Assembly (NCBI GenBank): GCA_913062615.1
Contig: CAJXXI010000004.1
Coordinates: forward strand, 1-36,165
Reading direction: 5' to 3'
DNA from: an uncultured bacterium
GTDB taxonomy: Bacteria; Planctomycetota; Phycisphaerae; Phycisphaerales; UBA1924
DNA length: 36,165 bases
Part shown: positions 8,090 through 22,777 of the stretch, one piece after another
Layout of the letters: every line of letters begins with the position of its first letter
How positions within the stretch are numbered: position 1 is the first letter of the stretch
The notes under the pieces: generated by a model
What the model saw: only the letters and a program-made list of their open reading frames with translations
Told to the model about the DNA's origin: nothing
The model's database searches: none
Position numbers and translations under genes: made by a program

Positions 8090-9175
8090 ATGTATAGATT
8101 TCGATCATGTATTGTTGCGATGGTATTTGTTGTGGGTGTGGAGGCTGCTTTTGGTCAAGAACACTCATTAGAGCAGCTTTTTCGGAAGCACATAGATGAG
8201 TCGCGAAAATTCGTATTGCATGAAAATATTGAGATATCCATGGACATGTTGGTAGGGATCAGGCTGCTAACTGACAAGGAAGTGGATAAGTTGAGCAGGC
8301 TTGCACCTACAGATATTGGTGCCGAGCATAGATATGAGAAATATCTTTCGCAAAGCAAGGCTGGTGGAGAGGCAAGTCGGTTCGAGTTATTTTATGGGAA
8401 TTCGGACTTGTGGCGATTAAATACTACTCCGATGACATACTCGGTTGTGCCTTATGTCGACCGGGCATCTGGAAGCGACGGGGATTGGATTCTTTCGTCG
8501 TATCAACTTCAAACATCGAGAAATTGGCGAGGTGTAGATGAAGACGCGGGGTACCGGCCTCAGGACAGGGTTGATCTTGTGATTAGAGGCATAGGTGTGA
8601 TGGTCGCGGGGGTTCCGTGGCCGGTTGATATGGAGTACTCAATTCTCAGTATCAATGATAAAAATGGGCAATCTGAGATACTTCTTGCTGTAGGTGAGGG
8701 GCAATATCGTTTAACGGTTGAAGTTGTGGGAGGCGGTGACCGCTTAAGAGTTAAGCGTGTAGAAAGTCTTCAAAGCGATGGGGCGAAGCCTGGGGTGGGG
8801 GAGTTTCAGGATTGGGAATATTCTGATATTTTGGGCGTGGATGTTGCCCGGACTTATATTTCAATATTGCCGAGTGGGCAGATGGAGAAAGAATGTCGAT
8901 TATTCCATATTGGAAAGTTGTCAAAGGATCTTGATGTGATTACTCGATCGCCATCAGCAGATGGGGTTGATGAGTTTCGCGGTGCGGCGACATATACCAG
9001 TGTAATTAAGCATACGGCGGGTGATCGTGTAAATGTAGACCACGAGTCAAGGGGCATAACGAGTGTTGTGGGCTTGGATTATGATAAAAATAGAGATTAT
9101 TCGTTTGTGTTTGTAGTGTCAGTTGTATTAGCCGCAGTGTTTGCGGTCATGGTTGTTCGAAAACGATCTGTTTGA
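8090..9175 (+). CDS. Cassette A: secreted, membrane-anchored protein of unknown function
   Basis: I do not recognise a family. The 361-residue product has an N-terminal signal peptide (hydrophobic SCIVAMVFVVGVEAAFG, cleavage probably before QEHS), a large extracytoplasmic domain rich in beta-type sequence, and a single C-terminal membrane helix (FVFVVSVVLAAVFAVMVV) followed by RKRSV. This gives a type I, periplasm-facing topology. The gene is visibly AT-richer than its flanks and leads a compact operon: the next ORF frame overlaps its stop, with the likely peptide start at 9187, then the MauE-like protein and the pseudopilin. Cassette B holds a different membrane-anchored protein at the equivalent functional slot. 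A scaffold or receptor role for the small Cys-rich product is only a guess. Confidence 0.8.
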   Translation: MYRFRSCIVAMVFVVGVEAAFGQEHSLEQLFRKHIDESRKFVLHENIEISMDMLVGIRLLTDKEVDKLSRLAPTDIGAEHRYEKYLSQSKAGGEASRFELFYGNSDLWRLNTTPMTYSVVPYVDRASGSDGDWILSSYQLQTSRNWRGVDEDAGYRPQDRVDLVIRGIGVMVAGVPWPVDMEYSILSINDKNGQSEILLAVGEGQYRLTVEVVGGGDRLRVKRVESLQSDGAKPGVGEFQDWEYSDILGVDVARTYISILPSGQMEKECRLFHIGKLSKDLDVITRSPSADGVDEFRGAATYTSVIKHTAGDRVNVDHESRGITSVVGLDYDKNRDYSFVFVVSVVLAAVFAVMVVRKRSV

Positions 9176-9186
9176 GAGGTGTAAAA

Positions 9187-9528
9187 ATGAAAGTTCAGTT
9201 GTTTGGTTTGGCAGGGGTGTTATTGTTCGGAACGGTTGCTGCGGCAGAGTGTTGGGACTTATTTTCGTTGGGAAATGCATGTGATATTAATCCTTGTTAT
9301 CGAAACGGTGTTTGTTCAGGAATTGTTTCGGACACGATAGATGAGGAGGTATTTATCGCTGTTTCTGGAAGCCCGGGTCGAAAAAAAGCGCCTAAAAATT
9401 ATTTGTGCCTGCAAGAGTGGACAGGACGTGATCAGTTTCAAAATTGCGGTACACCAAAGAGTTGCGAAGGGTTAGTTTCGGGTGATATTTTGACCGGGGG
9501 ACTATGTCCTGTTAGTGGTCCCGAGTAA
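9187..9528 (+). CDS. Cassette A: small secreted 8-Cys protein
   Basis: I chose the ATG at 9187 (113 residues) because GAGAGGTG is correctly spaced upstream and it opens a signal peptide (MKVQLFGLAGVLLFGTVAAA, cleavage before ECWD). The ORF-track start at 9172 is a TTG overlapping the previous stop. The mature part has eight cysteines (ECW, ACD, PCY, VCS, LCL, NCG, SCE, LCP), an even number that suggests four disulfides. No known domain is recognised; the DINPCYRNGVC stretch is superficially EGF-like. A MauE/DoxX-type membrane protein, a class needed for disulfide-rich methylamine dehydrogenase maturation, is encoded 18 nt downstream. Cassette B has a 6-Cys counterpart. Confidence 0.8.
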   Translation: MKVQLFGLAGVLLFGTVAAAECWDLFSLGNACDINPCYRNGVCSGIVSDTIDEEVFIAVSGSPGRKKAPKNYLCLQEWTGRDQFQNCGTPKSCEGLVSGDILTGGLCPVSGPE

Positions 9529-9546
9529 TTCGTAGGTGGAACGATT

Positions 9547-10002
9547 ATGAGACATGTATTCTCGACAGCGGCGGCATTCCTTGTCGCCGCTTTTATGATC
9601 TTTGCTGGAATCTCAAAGCTTGTGTTCTATGAGGAATTTGAAGCGGTGTTGAAGGATTGGTTGATCTTGCCTCAATGGGGATTGCCGATGATCATCATCG
9701 GGGTGCCGTTTCTTGAGATCATGCTTGGTCTTTGGCTTGTTTCTTCGCGATCGGATTGGCGGCCTCGGGTGTTTCTCATAGCGCTCCTGTGTGTTTTCAC
9801 GGTCACGGTGCTTATCGAAAACAGCTACAGCGGGAATGTTTCGTGTGGGTGTTTGGGCCAGGCGATGGATACGCCAACGAACATCGGTTTGCTCGTTTTA
9901 CGAAATATGGGACTGTGTTTGGCGTTAGTATTTCATCCATCCCTATTTACAAAGTTAGGGCGATATGCTCAATCGAAGAGAATCCGGATACACGCTGATT
10001 GA
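9547..10002 (+). CDS. Cassette A: MauE/DoxX-like redox-associated membrane protein
   Basis: This 151-residue protein has four predicted membrane helices (about residues 4-27, 45-65, 74-92 and 112-130). A periplasm-side CGC pair lies at C100/C102 in NVSCGCLGQAMDTP, the pattern of MauE/DoxX-type proteins. In methylamine utilisation, MauE is required with MauD for correct formation of the disulfide-rich MauA subunit. Here it follows a secreted 8-Cys protein gene by 18 nt, with a GTAGGTGG ribosome binding site. Its last 38 nt overlap the pseudopilin start, so expression is coupled. A role in thiol oxidation of the neighbouring protein is inferred. Cassette B carries a paralogue. Confidence 0.85.
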   Translation: MRHVFSTAAAFLVAAFMIFAGISKLVFYEEFEAVLKDWLILPQWGLPMIIIGVPFLEIMLGLWLVSSRSDWRPRVFLIALLCVFTVTVLIENSYSGNVSCGCLGQAMDTPTNIGLLVLRNMGLCLALVFHPSLFTKLGRYAQSKRIRIHAD

Positions 10003-10714
10003 ACTCTTTGTGGTGATCGTAGTAATTGCGGTGTTGATTGGGATTTTGGTGCCCACGCTCAAGCATGTTCGACGCAGTTCGCAGGATGCGGTGTCGCTTG
10101 CGAATATGCGCTCGCATACACAGGTGATGCATTTGTATGCGGGTGATTTTCGTGACTTTGCACCGTTCTTTGCCGACCCTAATGCGACTTATTCTGTGGC
10201 GCGGGGCGGGGGGCTCACGGTGACATTCGAATACTTTGGGAGTGTTGAGATGTGGGTGGTGGCGTTGGTTGATCGGTATTACGGGTTGGGGTTTGGGACG
10301 AATCAGTGGGACGAGAATATTGAGTGGAGCGTGTTTGCTCGCCCTGGGGTTGATGGGCACTTGTATCAATACAGTCCGACATTTTTGGCGCGGCCTCAGT
10401 ATTGGAATGAGAACACACGAGCCGAGGGGCAGCTGGGAGCGATTCGGATGAGCATGGTGCGCTATGCGTCTTCGAAAGCGTTGTTGTTAGAACTCGACGA
10501 GCAGCGGAGTTTTCCGGTTTGGGGTTCGAGGGGTTTGCTGGGTGATCGAGGGTGGGGGTTCTCGTTTGTTGATGGATCGGCGCGTCGGCCTTCGGCGGAT
10601 CGACTTGTTCAGCCGTACCATCGCGGGGAGGGTTCCGCGCATGGCGGGAGGTTTAATATCGGCGTTGTTGGTATGCATACCGAGGATGGCGTGCTGGGGC
10701 GTGATGTTGAGTGA
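9965..10714 (+). CDS. Cassette A: type II pseudopilin-like protein
   Basis: The 249-residue protein starts with a class III prepilin signal, ESG|YTLIELFVVIVVIAVLIGILVPTL, with the expected glycine at -1 and glutamate at +5. Its globular domain shares ARPxxW, S-x-VRY-x-S-x-K and FVDGSA with the cassette B pseudopilin at 22007, so the two are paralogues. The FVDG(S/H)A block resembles the H-x9-DG region of the planctomycete DUF1559/prepilin family. It overlaps the MauE-like gene and is the last gene of the cassette, convergent with dinB. No prepilin peptidase or ATPase is encoded in the window, so these would have to be supplied from elsewhere. Confidence 0.9.
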   Translation: MLNRRESGYTLIELFVVIVVIAVLIGILVPTLKHVRRSSQDAVSLANMRSHTQVMHLYAGDFRDFAPFFADPNATYSVARGGGLTVTFEYFGSVEMWVVALVDRYYGLGFGTNQWDENIEWSVFARPGVDGHLYQYSPTFLARPQYWNENTRAEGQLGAIRMSMVRYASSKALLLELDEQRSFPVWGSRGLLGDRGWGFSFVDGSARRPSADRLVQPYHRGEGSAHGGRFNIGVVGMHTEDGVLGRDVE

Positions 10715-14497: not shown

Positions 14498-14523
14498 AGC
14501 CCTCCGTGTGTTTGGAGGGCTTT
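14498..14523 (+). terminator. Hairpin terminator or attenuator upstream of the cupredoxin gene
   Basis: An 8-bp stem AGCCCTCC/GGAGGGCT with an 8-nt loop is followed by a short TTT. It lies 37 nt before the cupredoxin start. No plus-strand gene ends just upstream, so it may insulate or attenuate rather than end a known transcript. Confidence 0.5.
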
Positions 14524-14559
14524 GGACAAACACTTGCTATCTATATAAGGGAGAGCGGA

Positions 14560-15009
14560 ATGAAACAGAATGGAAAACAGCATACAAAACGGACAATGGC
14601 ATTGGCGATGATCGCGCTGGCGTCGGCTGGGGTTGTCACCCAGGCGGAGATCTTTGTGGTCGAGCTTGATGGGCGATCGTTTGTGTACGATGGGCTTGCG
14701 GACATGGATATTGATCTGACGATCAATGTCGGCGATACCGTGCGTTGGGAATGGATATCAGGGTTTCACAATGTTGTCAACGGGTTCCCTGGCGACCCGG
14801 ACGAGGACACGCTTTTTAACTCAGGGCCTCCAACGAGTGATACTTCGACTTTCTTTGAGTACGCCTTTGATGATGAGGGCGTGTTTGGATATCACTGTGA
14901 GGTGCATGAGGGTATCGGGATGATCTCGTTTGTGACGGTGGTACCAGCGCCGGGGACGATGTTGGCGATGGCTCCTGTTGGGCTGATGCTCACGCGTCGT
15001 CGTCGATAA
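14560..15009 (+). CDS. Secreted cupredoxin (plastocyanin/azurin-like) with PEP-CTERM-like tail
   Basis: The ATG at 14560 (149 residues) follows AAGGGAGAG; the ORF-track start at 14506 lies inside a hairpin and is unlikely. A signal peptide ends near VTQA|EIFVVEL. A full type I copper ligand set is visible: H70 (GFHNVVNG), then C113, H116 and M121 in YHCEVHEGIGM. The C terminus VPAPGTMLAMAPVGLMLTRRRR is a short PEP-CTERM-like sorting tail (motif, hydrophobic stretch, arginine cluster), with PAPG in place of PEP. The product is likely a small electron carrier held transiently at the cytoplasmic membrane before processing. No obvious redox partner gene is adjacent. Confidence 0.88.
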   Translation: MKQNGKQHTKRTMALAMIALASAGVVTQAEIFVVELDGRSFVYDGLADMDIDLTINVGDTVRWEWISGFHNVVNGFPGDPDEDTLFNSGPPTSDTSTFFEYAFDDEGVFGYHCEVHEGIGMISFVTVVPAPGTMLAMAPVGLMLTRRRR

Positions 15010-20386: not shown

Positions 20387-20866
20387 TTGTGTTATAGACC
20401 CGCCTCCCGCCTCCCGCGTTTAGCAGTTGCATTGGGTGCGAGATCAGCAACCATCGCGTTGGGGGTCATCTATTTCATTGCCGCGATTGGTAAGGGGACT
20501 CAGGTGCCCCGGACAGCCACGGTTGTGGAGTCGGTATTGCTTGTTGGTAGCCAGGTTTCACATCTCATTGTTCTGATCCTTGTTCTGGCCGAGCTCGTGC
20601 TTGCGGGGATGTTGGTTGGTGGGTATCGTCTTCGGTCGGCGAGTATCGCTAGTTTAGCACTTGGTGTGGTCTTTCTATTGTGGCACCTTCTTGTGTGGCT
20701 AGAGCCATGGGCTACAGATTGTGGGTGCGGGGCACCGCCAATGATGAAGAAGCTACTCAGTGATTCGAGCGCAGGGCTTGGGCTTGCGGGTATCGTTTTT
20801 GTGCTGTCTGGGGTTGCTGTATTGGGGTATGCGTGTAGAGATTTTAAGTTGGAGAACTCGTTGTGA
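20387..20866 (+). CDS. Cassette B: MauE/DoxX-like redox-associated membrane protein
   Basis: The paralogous slot to 9547-10002. The 159-residue frame opens at a TTG (20387) and shows four membrane helices (about 22-36, 57-80, 86-105 and 132-152). The CGC pair lies at C112/C114 in WATDCGCGAPP. The start is uncertain: no ribosome binding site precedes the TTG. The ATG at 20367, right behind a good promoter, is in another frame and stops at 20421. The two frames would join if the heptanucleotide CCCGCCT between them had one more copy. MauE-type proteins support disulfide formation in secreted Cys-rich partners; a 6-Cys secreted protein gene follows 34 nt later. Family call good, start poor. Confidence 0.78.
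   Translation: MCYRPASRLPRLAVALGARSATIALGVIYFIAAIGKGTQVPRTATVVESVLLVGSQVSHLIVLILVLAELVLAGMLVGGYRLRSASIASLALGVVFLLWHLLVWLEPWATDCGCGAPPMMKKLLSDSSAGLGLAGIVFVLSGVAVLGYACRDFKLENSL
20399..20417 (+). repeat. Heptanucleotide tandem repeat (CCCGCCT, 2.7 copies)
   Basis: CCCGCCT-CCCGCCT-CCCGC lies within the first codons of the MauE-like gene. Adding one unit would fuse the upstream ATG frame (20367) to the membrane protein. It is a candidate slipped-strand switch or the scar of one. Confidence 0.7.
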
Positions 20867-20900
20867 GTTGTCTGTTATCAGTTTGAAAAGGAGAAGTAGT

Positions 20901-21161
20901 ATGATTACTCGTAAAACTTTAGTTCACTCGGCAATGGTTTTGGGCGTGTTATTTGTAAGTGTGATGATCGCGGACGCAGCGGCCGGTGGTCTTCCTTTGC
21001 CGCAATGTGAGCATGTGCAATATTGCTACGACGGAGAGGGCAATCTCACCTCAACAACAACCGCATACGGTGGTGTTTGCCGCATAAATCAAAAATGTGT
21101 AGGGGATGGTGGTTGTGATCCAACGCCATGGGCCGTGGCGGATTGTGTAGACCAGCAATAG
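20901..21161 (+). CDS. Cassette B: small secreted 6-Cys protein
   Basis: The ATG at 20901 has an ideal AAAAGGAG ribosome binding site, giving 86 residues; the longer ORF-track frame from 20760 overlaps the previous gene. A signal peptide (KTLVHSAMVLGVLFVSVMIADAAA) releases a mature segment of about 58 residues with six cysteines (QCE, YCY, VCR, KCV, GCD, DCV), so up to three disulfides. There is no known domain. Size, Cys-richness and position next to a MauE-like gene match the 8-Cys protein of cassette A, but little sequence identity is visible outside the spacing of cysteines. It could be a secreted peptide, a small redox subunit or a structural cap. Confidence 0.8.
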   Translation: MITRKTLVHSAMVLGVLFVSVMIADAAAGGLPLPQCEHVQYCYDGEGNLTSTTTAYGGVCRINQKCVGDGGCDPTPWAVADCVDQQ

Positions 21162-21233
21162 TGTTTGTCGGTCGTTAAGATTGAATGCGTGCGGTGGAAT
21201 TTGTCTGAAGTCGAAGTAGTGGGGTGGTTTTTT

Positions 21234-22010
21234 ATGTCAACAAAAGTTCGAATGATGGTCGCCGTTGCAGTTGTTGCAGGTGGATTGTTTGTGTTACTTC
21301 GCAGCTATATGTTGGCAGGCCCTCCTTCTGCGACAGCAACTTCTGAAAATGAAATATCTGCAGTTGTTGCAAAGGAACTCGGATCTGATCGGTTTAGTGT
21401 CAGGCTCAAACCCGAAGATGTTTCTGATTCCTTCGATATCATTCACGCTTCGATCATTGAGCAGGCCAAAGAGATCCAATCAGTTCGACAGCTCGGTACA
21501 TTGGGAGTTGAGGATCTGGCGTCAGGATTCGTGGAACGAATTCGGTTTATGCTCGCGCCTGACATATCTCGTGATTATGTTTCATTCAAAGCACGAGGTG
21601 ATCCGAGGGGCATTGAAGAATGGACCGCGGATTTTGAGAAATACATCGAGTATACACAGGAAAGTAAAGAAGTTCCTGGGATGGATTTAGAGGGCGTCGA
21701 GGTTCGTCTTATCCTTTTCGATAGGGATGGTGAGCAGGTGCTTGGGCAGGAAAGGCTTGCTCAAGGGTTTGGCATGACTATTGGGACTGGGGTAAAATCG
21801 GGTGTGTTGCCCAAAGAATCCAGGATTGCAGGTATGCTTGTAGTTGAAGTAGTGATGCCGATCGAGCGTATGGATATGATTAAGCGACATCTAGCGCCAG
21901 CGATTCAGGGATATCATTTTGCGTGGAGTCCGAAGATTGAAAAATGGATTCCCTATGAATCAGTTGTTTATAGTGTTCGGGGTAGCGCGTTTGGTGCACC
22001 GCCGGTATGA
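21234..22010 (+). CDS. Cassette B: membrane-anchored protein of unknown function
   Basis: The ATG at 21234 gives 258 residues and follows a GGGGTGG ribosome binding site; the ORF-track start at 21165 is less likely. One N-terminal helix (RMMVAVAVVAGGLFVLLRSYML) anchors an outward-facing alpha/beta domain without cysteines (ENEISAVVAKELGSDRFSVRL... GMLVVEVVMPIERMDMIKRHL). I recognise no family. The stop overlaps the pseudopilin start (ATGA), a sign of translational coupling. It is AT-richer than rpoN or clpC. It fills the position of the unknown anchored protein of cassette A, but I could not align the two. A bitopic partner of the pseudopilin is possible. Confidence 0.78.
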   Translation: MSTKVRMMVAVAVVAGGLFVLLRSYMLAGPPSATATSENEISAVVAKELGSDRFSVRLKPEDVSDSFDIIHASIIEQAKEIQSVRQLGTLGVEDLASGFVERIRFMLAPDISRDYVSFKARGDPRGIEEWTADFEKYIEYTQESKEVPGMDLEGVEVRLILFDRDGEQVLGQERLAQGFGMTIGTGVKSGVLPKESRIAGMLVVEVVMPIERMDMIKRHLAPAIQGYHFAWSPKIEKWIPYESVVYSVRGSAFGAPPV

Positions 22011-22777
22011 ATAATGATCGCAATAACAACGCATTTACACTCATTGAGTTGATGGTCTCGATCGGTATCATTGCGATTTTGATTTCGATCGCGATCCCTG
22101 CGCTTAGCGGGGTTCGTCAGCGAGCGAGAGATGCGATCGGTTTATCAAATTTACGCCAGACAAGTGTGGCTATGGAGAACTATGTGCAGGCGTATGGGGG
22201 GTGGCTACCCTACGCGAAAGAGGGTAGTGGTTTTCGTCTCACGCCTGAAGTGCCGCCGTCGAGTGTGATTCGGCCGGGCTATTGGGATACAAGTTCCTAT
22301 TGGTCGTCCTTATTCCACGAAGTTGCTCCGTGGGACCAGTGGTTTGGGATGTGGGTCTATCCGGATCCTCGACGACCGACGAGCAAGCCTTGGGCTATTG
22401 ACTCAACCTCGGATTCACCGTTTAGTAATGGGGTGAGTTCGTTGGAATACGCCCGTTCGCTTTATGCTCGCCCTGAGATTTGGGAATCGGGCGGGATTAT
22501 TGAAGATCGAGACTCGGTGCTCCGCGGGGTTCGGCATTCTGAGGTGCGATATCCATCTGCAAAGGTGAGTTTGTTTGATAGCGAGTTATGCGCGCGTGTG
22601 CGGTGCGATGATCCTAAAACGGTCAAGCGGGCGATGCTCTTTGTCGATGGGCATGCTGCCATGAAGGCGTTGAGTGATGCCAACGCGCCGGTCAAGGGAC
22701 GTTTACCCGAGTTGGCGGCGTATGGCGCGTTGGCGGTGCATGATACGGCCGGTGGGGCTCGAGGGCGAGATTATTAG
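22007..22777 (+). CDS. Cassette B: type II pseudopilin-like protein
   Basis: The 256-residue paralogue of the cassette A pseudopilin. The N terminus NNNA|FTLIELMVSIGIIAILISIAIPAL is a class III prepilin signal, but the residue before the cleavage point is alanine where glycine is usual; glutamate +5 is kept. The globular domain shares YARPEIW, SEVRYPSAKV and LFVDGHAAMKAL with the cassette A protein. The last motif is the H-x9-DG-like block of planctomycete DUF1559-type pilins. It is coupled to the upstream gene by ATGA and ends the cassette, facing the convergent ABC permease gene with only 19 nt between stops. Confidence 0.9.
   Translation: MNNDRNNNAFTLIELMVSIGIIAILISIAIPALSGVRQRARDAIGLSNLRQTSVAMENYVQAYGGWLPYAKEGSGFRLTPEVPPSSVIRPGYWDTSSYWSSLFHEVAPWDQWFGMWVYPDPRRPTSKPWAIDSTSDSPFSNGVSSLEYARSLYARPEIWESGGIIEDRDSVLRGVRHSEVRYPSAKVSLFDSELCARVRCDDPKTVKRAMLFVDGHAAMKALSDANAPVKGRLPELAAYGALAVHDTAGGARGRDY

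Follow-up and report, generated by a model that had tools for sequence, protein, structure and literature searches.

Two pilin cassettes in the window

The window, the whole 36,165-nucleotide stretch of DNA analysed here, is contig C4 of a Phycisphaerales MAG (2.4 Mb, 84% complete). At 20387-22777 the four open reading frames of a cassette, here named B, were confirmed, encoding a MauE-like protein, an exported protein with six cysteines, an anchored protein and a pilin. Start codons were judged by eye, and small genes were located by rule and by reading. Cassette B, of the type designated Ia below, comprises:

20387..20866, + strand: MauE-like membrane protein (PF07291, 4.7e-11) with the invariant K, E, F and C-x-C
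20901..21161, + strand: exported Cys-rich protein, recognized from its sequence (86 aa, signal peptide followed by 6 Cys)
21234..22010, + strand: anchored protein ancI, assigned to its family by iterative profile
22007..22777, + strand: type IV pilin / pseudopilin (PF07963, 2.9e-8), with the C-terminal sequence HDTAGGARGRDY

The MauE-like protein, whose TTG start is uncertain, has four predicted TM helices, and its CGC lies in the TM3-TM4 loop, predicted by the positive-inside rule to face outward. The start ATG of the Cys-rich gene is preceded by AAAAGGAG, and its product is akin to the Cys-rich protein of another cassette of the same genome, C61 (E 1e-3 to 1e-4). In ancI a single N-terminal TM helix is followed by a periplasmic domain, with WSPKIEKWIPY at the C-terminus, and the end of this gene overlaps the pilin start via ATGA. 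Promoter and terminator scans of cassette B gave no clear excess over shuffles.

Cassette A (type II), at 8090-10714, contains these kinds of gene again, in accordance with a sequence-only reading of the window that had described the same four classes in a different order. The anchored proteins, however, belong to two families, ancI and ancII, and the six-cysteine class ascribed to both cassettes applies to B, whereas the protein of A has eight cysteines. Cassette A comprises:

8090..9175, + strand: anchored protein ancII, homologous to proteins in 12 further genomes of this family
9187..9528, + strand: exported Cys-rich protein (113 aa, 8-Cys framework) with type II orthologues
9547..10002, + strand: MauE-like membrane protein with CGC (PF07291, 6.1e-19), within the type II MauE clade
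9965..10714, + strand: type IV pilin / pseudopilin (PF07963, 1.7e-5), ending in HTEDGVLGRDVE

In this cassette ancII consists of a signal peptide, a periplasmic domain and a C-terminal TM helix, and its homologues in the 12 other genomes are mostly found a short way upstream of pilins of the same family. The Cys-rich protein has orthologues in further cassettes of type II, the best match being that of locus L157 (E=1.3e-16), and 7 of its 8 Cys are invariant in a seven-sequence alignment. The pilin gene overlaps that of MauE by 38 nt. Between the two cassettes, at 14506-15009, the window also encodes an exported, plastocyanin-like protein that has a short anchor at its C-terminus as well as a run of arginines and resembles a sorted exoprotein.

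The only Pfam families found in cassettes A and B are PF07291 (MauE), scoring 69 bits in A and 43.5 bits in B (cut-off 27), and PF07963 (the pilin N-terminus). Both MauE-like proteins carry the CGC pair pointed out earlier, and they show no likeness to each other by direct BLASTP (E=2.4). The motifs ascribed to both pilins, ARPxxW, VRYxSxK and FVDG(S/H)A, are all present; the likeness extends past the N-terminal helix (BLASTP E=6e-10) and includes a C-terminal HxTxxGxxGRD that was absent from that motif list. The Cys-rich and anchored proteins had been regarded as diverged past alignment, which is correct for the Cys-rich pair (E=0.17), but the anchored proteins are unrelated families: an iterative profile unites all other cassette anchors with that of B and never with that of A (E about 1). 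Homology of all four genes between A and B fails, holding for pilin and MauE and not for the anchored proteins, with no detectable likeness between the Cys-rich proteins.

Types, distribution and genomic sites

The related contigs come from Phycisphaerales and Planctomycetota MAGs, all of them drafts. The genome of the window has at least seven loci of the pilin family, five of them with a Cys-rich gene (A, B, C61, C30 and C130). In C61 the MauE gene is truncated by the contig end, C30 is devoid of MauE, and in C130 the Cys-rich gene lies upstream of the anchored gene; C151 and C125 consist of anchored protein and pilin only. Seven pilins of this genome share the C-terminal HxTxxGxxGRD, and a profile of the pilin C-terminus finds seven strong loci in it, the same seven from which it was derived, the next match having E=1e-3. 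Two broad pilin alignments held no stretch conserved enough for a scan of the collection, for which a narrower alignment sufficed. A search at E<=1e-5 detects the pilin family in 40 of 81 genomes from this genus, family and order, counting that of the window, and one at a strict E<=1e-20 in 3 of the 294 genomes of a phylum-wide draw, all three from the same family and again with the window's own counted. One genome of a sister family, G074, also has it.

About 60 neighbourhoods were read to define the cassette orders, which are three: MauE-Cys-ancI-pilin in type Ia (B, C61 and others, some without MauE), Cys-ancI-MauE-pilin in type Ib (C130, L102, L106 and L109) and ancII-Cys-MauE-pilin in type II (A and most of L157-L171). 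By iterative profile ancI is a single family, the two-gene units included, although its links to the Ib members are weak. Linkage is conserved in more than 30 Phycisphaerales cassettes, with the pilin as the final gene in nearly all loci read. An accidental assembly of unrelated neighbours, which the commonness of pilins and MauE as families might suggest, is hardly credible given the overlapping reading frames, the linkage repeated across genera and the agreement of the trees described below. Moreover, 11 control pilin loci in this genome have no such Cys-rich gene upstream (0/11), and set against these controls the recurrence of the same cassettes in many genomes exceeds chance. The searchable literature yielded no description of such cassettes, nor any report linking MauE to pilins or dealing with pilins of Phycisphaerales.

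In L086 (G016:C13, 143-2534), a C61-type cassette in a draft MAG, the frames of MauE, Cys-rich and anchored proteins are broken while the pilin frame is open, owing either to decay or to an assembly error. One genome has pilin loci of types II and Ia a few kb apart (L132 / L172). A subgroup of Cys-rich proteins (L031:6739-7032, with homologues in L097, L103, L120 and L122) has a CxxCH, the motif of c-type haem sites, near the start and further conserved Cys.

Cassette B is flanked by rpoN and a permease gene, which are 32-158 bp apart in five close relatives that share this gene block (genomes G015, G016, G012, G008 and G010). Likewise, cassette A is absent beside dinB in G015, G013, G016 and G012. 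Since the closest relatives lack both cassettes at the corresponding sites, A and B are accessory, and their gain in the lineage of the window is a simpler reading than loss elsewhere. Neither an integrase nor a target duplication was recognized. In G013 (L199) the gap between rpoN and the permease gene holds a different stretch of 1.5 kb, with one frame resembling serine O-acetyltransferase, which marks a variable spot. Type Ia or II cassettes or pilin genes also adjoin dinB in L114, L174 and L231, as cassette A does, possibly reflecting a preferred neighbourhood.

Descent and rates of change

Trees of pilin and MauE covered the 34 cassettes having both genes. Type II comes out as a single clade for MauE (95/93, recovered in 98% of bootstrap trees). 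On the pilin tree two label changes separate types I and II, versus about 11 when shuffled, and A and B stand apart; the Ib pilins adjoin those of type II on poorly resolved branches. The agreement of the main groups in the two trees indicates that pilin and MauE largely descend together and that A and B lie in different old lineages, although the placement of B within its group is unsure because its branch is long in both trees. The pilin and MauE pairs do not fall among unrelated families, and in other genomes the genes remain linked.

Cassette B had been proposed to be a shuffled paralogue of A. The homology of their pilins and MauE-like proteins stands; judged from their sequences, however, the two cassettes belong to separate old lineages, within each of which gene order is fixed. 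That B is a reshuffled copy of A made inside this genome would account for the same kinds of gene and the related pilins, but it is very improbable, given that A and B fall into different groups of both trees, that each gene order is kept across other genera and that the anchored proteins are unrelated. The lack of direct likeness between the MauE pair argues in the same direction, as does the Cys-rich pair, which cannot be aligned although the protein of A has orthologues elsewhere.

The expectation that the Cys-rich protein evolves faster than the pilin was borne out, with dN higher for the Cys-rich gene in every orthologous pair but L102/L106 (6 of 7). Identities agree with this: 75% for pilin, 36% for anchored and 36-44% for Cys-rich proteins in C61/L090; 85, 69 and 46%, respectively, in C30/L097; and 72, 50 and 53% in C130/L102, where MauE stands at 67%. 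The whole-gene omega of the Cys-rich genes is 0.06-0.49 where dS is unsaturated, several dS values being saturated. Cys-rich and anchored proteins thus outpace the pilin in most pairs, yet they are under purifying selection. Of the earlier picture of a diversifying system with conserved machinery and variable cargo, the faster change of the Cys-rich protein is upheld, but these omega values do not bear out positive selection; as read from the sequences, the rates are those of conserved machinery with faster-changing partners and fall short of proof for positive selection. In 24 of 26 cassettes GC3 is lower in the Cys-rich gene than in the pilin (p=4e-7), and 21 of 25 show the same for the anchored gene; the rows in both counts are not independent. 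No such difference separates MauE from the pilin. The similar speed of change of anchored and Cys-rich proteins suggests that they act on each other.

Putative redox partner, proposed role and related systems

In the MauE-like proteins K24, E57, F84 and C100-x-C102 (numbering of A) are invariant, and the C-x-C loop is predicted outside in most sequences by the positive-inside rule. Under a strict rule, which demands that an ORF for an exported Cys-rich protein lie upstream of the pilin, MauE and Cys-rich genes occur together in 27 loci, MauE alone in 10, a Cys-rich gene alone in 5 and neither in 36 (Fisher 4e-8; rows related). The rule is approximate: its first-listed ORF is wrong for L106 and L120, though a convincing Cys-rich gene is present there, and most of the 10 MauE-only loci contain such a gene when read. 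Several cassettes with a Cys-rich gene have no recognized MauE (C30, L097, L103, L120, L124, L135 and L090), which counts against the explanation proposed below. Two further MauE-like genes lie outside cassettes (L028:1134-1688 and L030:3326-3979), one of them beside a rhodanese-like gene. No VKOR gene was found in the 84% complete genome of the window.

Models of MauE (pLDDT 71.5) and ancI (pLDDT 67) matched nothing in the PDB at E<=0.001; a VKOR-like hit for the MauE model, at rank 4 with E=1.3, was set aside. Profiles of type II Cys-rich proteins, ancII and MauE led to no convincing solved structure, ancI and ancII belong to no Pfam family, and the anchored and Cys-rich proteins have no PHROGs match.

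Methylamine dehydrogenase needs both MauE and MauD. The cassettes resemble methylamine utilization in that a gene for a MauE-family membrane protein neighbours one for an exported, Cys-rich protein, but they contain neither MauD nor a methylamine dehydrogenase subunit; the partners are unrelated, and a pilin and an anchored protein occur instead. In the passage of PMC7794033 that cites van der Palen 1997, MauE of methylamine utilization is speculated to have a role in disulfide formation of the small subunit. Given this known context and the co-occurrence of MauE with Cys-rich genes, MauE may aid the oxidation of the Cys-rich protein after export.

We hypothesize, with a probability of about 0.42, that the cassette is an accessory operon in which a dedicated pilin presents or moves, via a type IV filament, an exported, disulfide-rich protein oxidized with the help of MauE. 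Seen directly in the sequences are the classes of gene and their linkage in three fixed orders, the largely parallel descent of pilin and MauE, faster change and lower GC3 in the Cys-rich and anchored genes, and presence or absence at otherwise conserved sites. In the proposed sequence of events, the Cys-rich protein, exported by Sec, would be the functional product, and its disulfides would form as the predicted periplasm-facing C-x-C of MauE relays electrons. From their linkage, ancI or ancII could dock or hold the product at the membrane, while the pilin, cut by the general prepilin peptidase of the host, would join a filament run by host machinery and, again to judge from linkage, present the product or carry it from the periplasm. 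Genes of the secretion-ATPase family and one borderline match to the prepilin-peptidase family are found elsewhere in the genome. The presentation of an added module by pilins is a known strategy (PMC8179133). On this view the cell surface would receive different disulfide-rich proteins from different cassettes.

The pilin itself could instead be the product, an adhesin or sensor tip, with the Cys-rich protein acting as assembly or redox chaperone for anchor or pilin and MauE setting the redox state. The pilin is indeed the most conserved part and the last gene, and ancI-pilin pairs stand alone: those without Cys-rich gene or MauE (C151 and C125 types) are the more conserved form and count against the filament hypothesis, since there the pilin functions in the absence of the product. 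We nevertheless consider this unlikely, because cassette pilins and ancI have few or no Cys and would offer little substrate to a thiol chaperone, and because a chaperone is expected to be conserved, yet the Cys-rich protein is among the fastest changing.

A peptide bacteriocin or contact toxin, in which the Cys-rich protein is the agent, MauE the maturase, the anchored protein an immunity or guard protein and the pilin the means of delivery, is quite unlikely. It would suit a small, fast-changing, disulfide-rich and exported Cys protein, an anchored protein changing at about the same rate, an accessory and patchy distribution, and the occurrence of MauE in candidate peptide clusters, as given in the decRiPPter part of PMC7794033. 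However, the cassettes have no dedicated peptidase or ABC exporter, the signal is Sec-like, purifying selection acts over the whole gene, and Pfam and the PADLOC anti-phage models give no match (PADLOC, 0 of 8 proteins of cassettes A and B). Compared with a RiPP cluster, which would have a precursor with leader and core, a tailoring enzyme and an exporter, the cassettes show Sec-like signals and contain neither a peptidase nor an ABC transporter; MauE may act as a tailoring enzyme. According to that part of PMC7794033, MauE homologues occur in candidate peptide clusters of Streptomyces, in which, as in the cassettes, a MauE homologue adjoins a small precursor-like gene. Those clusters, as described there, belong to another phylum and concern ribosomal peptides, with no mention of a pilin, whereas the cassettes encode Sec-exported proteins.

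Regarding the pilins, PF07963, covering the class III signal and N-terminal hydrophobic helix, is above cut-off for A and B, and all 16 cassette pilins that were aligned match it. Verru_Chthon cassettes (TIGR02596, TIGR02599), from a neighbouring phylum, are likewise short and include pilin-like proteins. Unlike Verru_Chthon C and D, the pilins of cassettes A and B score 12-21 bits against cut-offs of 70 and 256.5 (18.9 and 18.2 bits, respectively, for B), and the match of cassette pilins is confined to the N-terminal helix. With DUF1559 pseudopilins (PF07596) they share the pilin N-terminus and an FxDGxA stretch, but A and B do not match that family, only 1 of 16 cassette pilins does so (E=0.04), and the cassette pilins differ in ending in HxTxxGxxGRD and in having linked partner genes. 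They are probably distant kin of the planctomycete DUF1559 pseudopilins.

A wider and more doubtful extension of the filament hypothesis is that of a lineage-specific surface display, in which planctomycete type IV filaments would bear interchangeable, disulfide-rich exported proteins, each with its own membrane thiol oxidoreductase, anchor and pilin, through operons gained and lost at conserved sites. Planctomycetes have many pilin-like genes. In the cassettes one well-bounded pilin family is linked with both a redox partner and a small exported protein, which supplies at least some of these genes with a testable product. The cassettes would also place MauE outside methylamine metabolism, and their number, in the dozens, allows presence or absence, gene order and rate of change to be compared.
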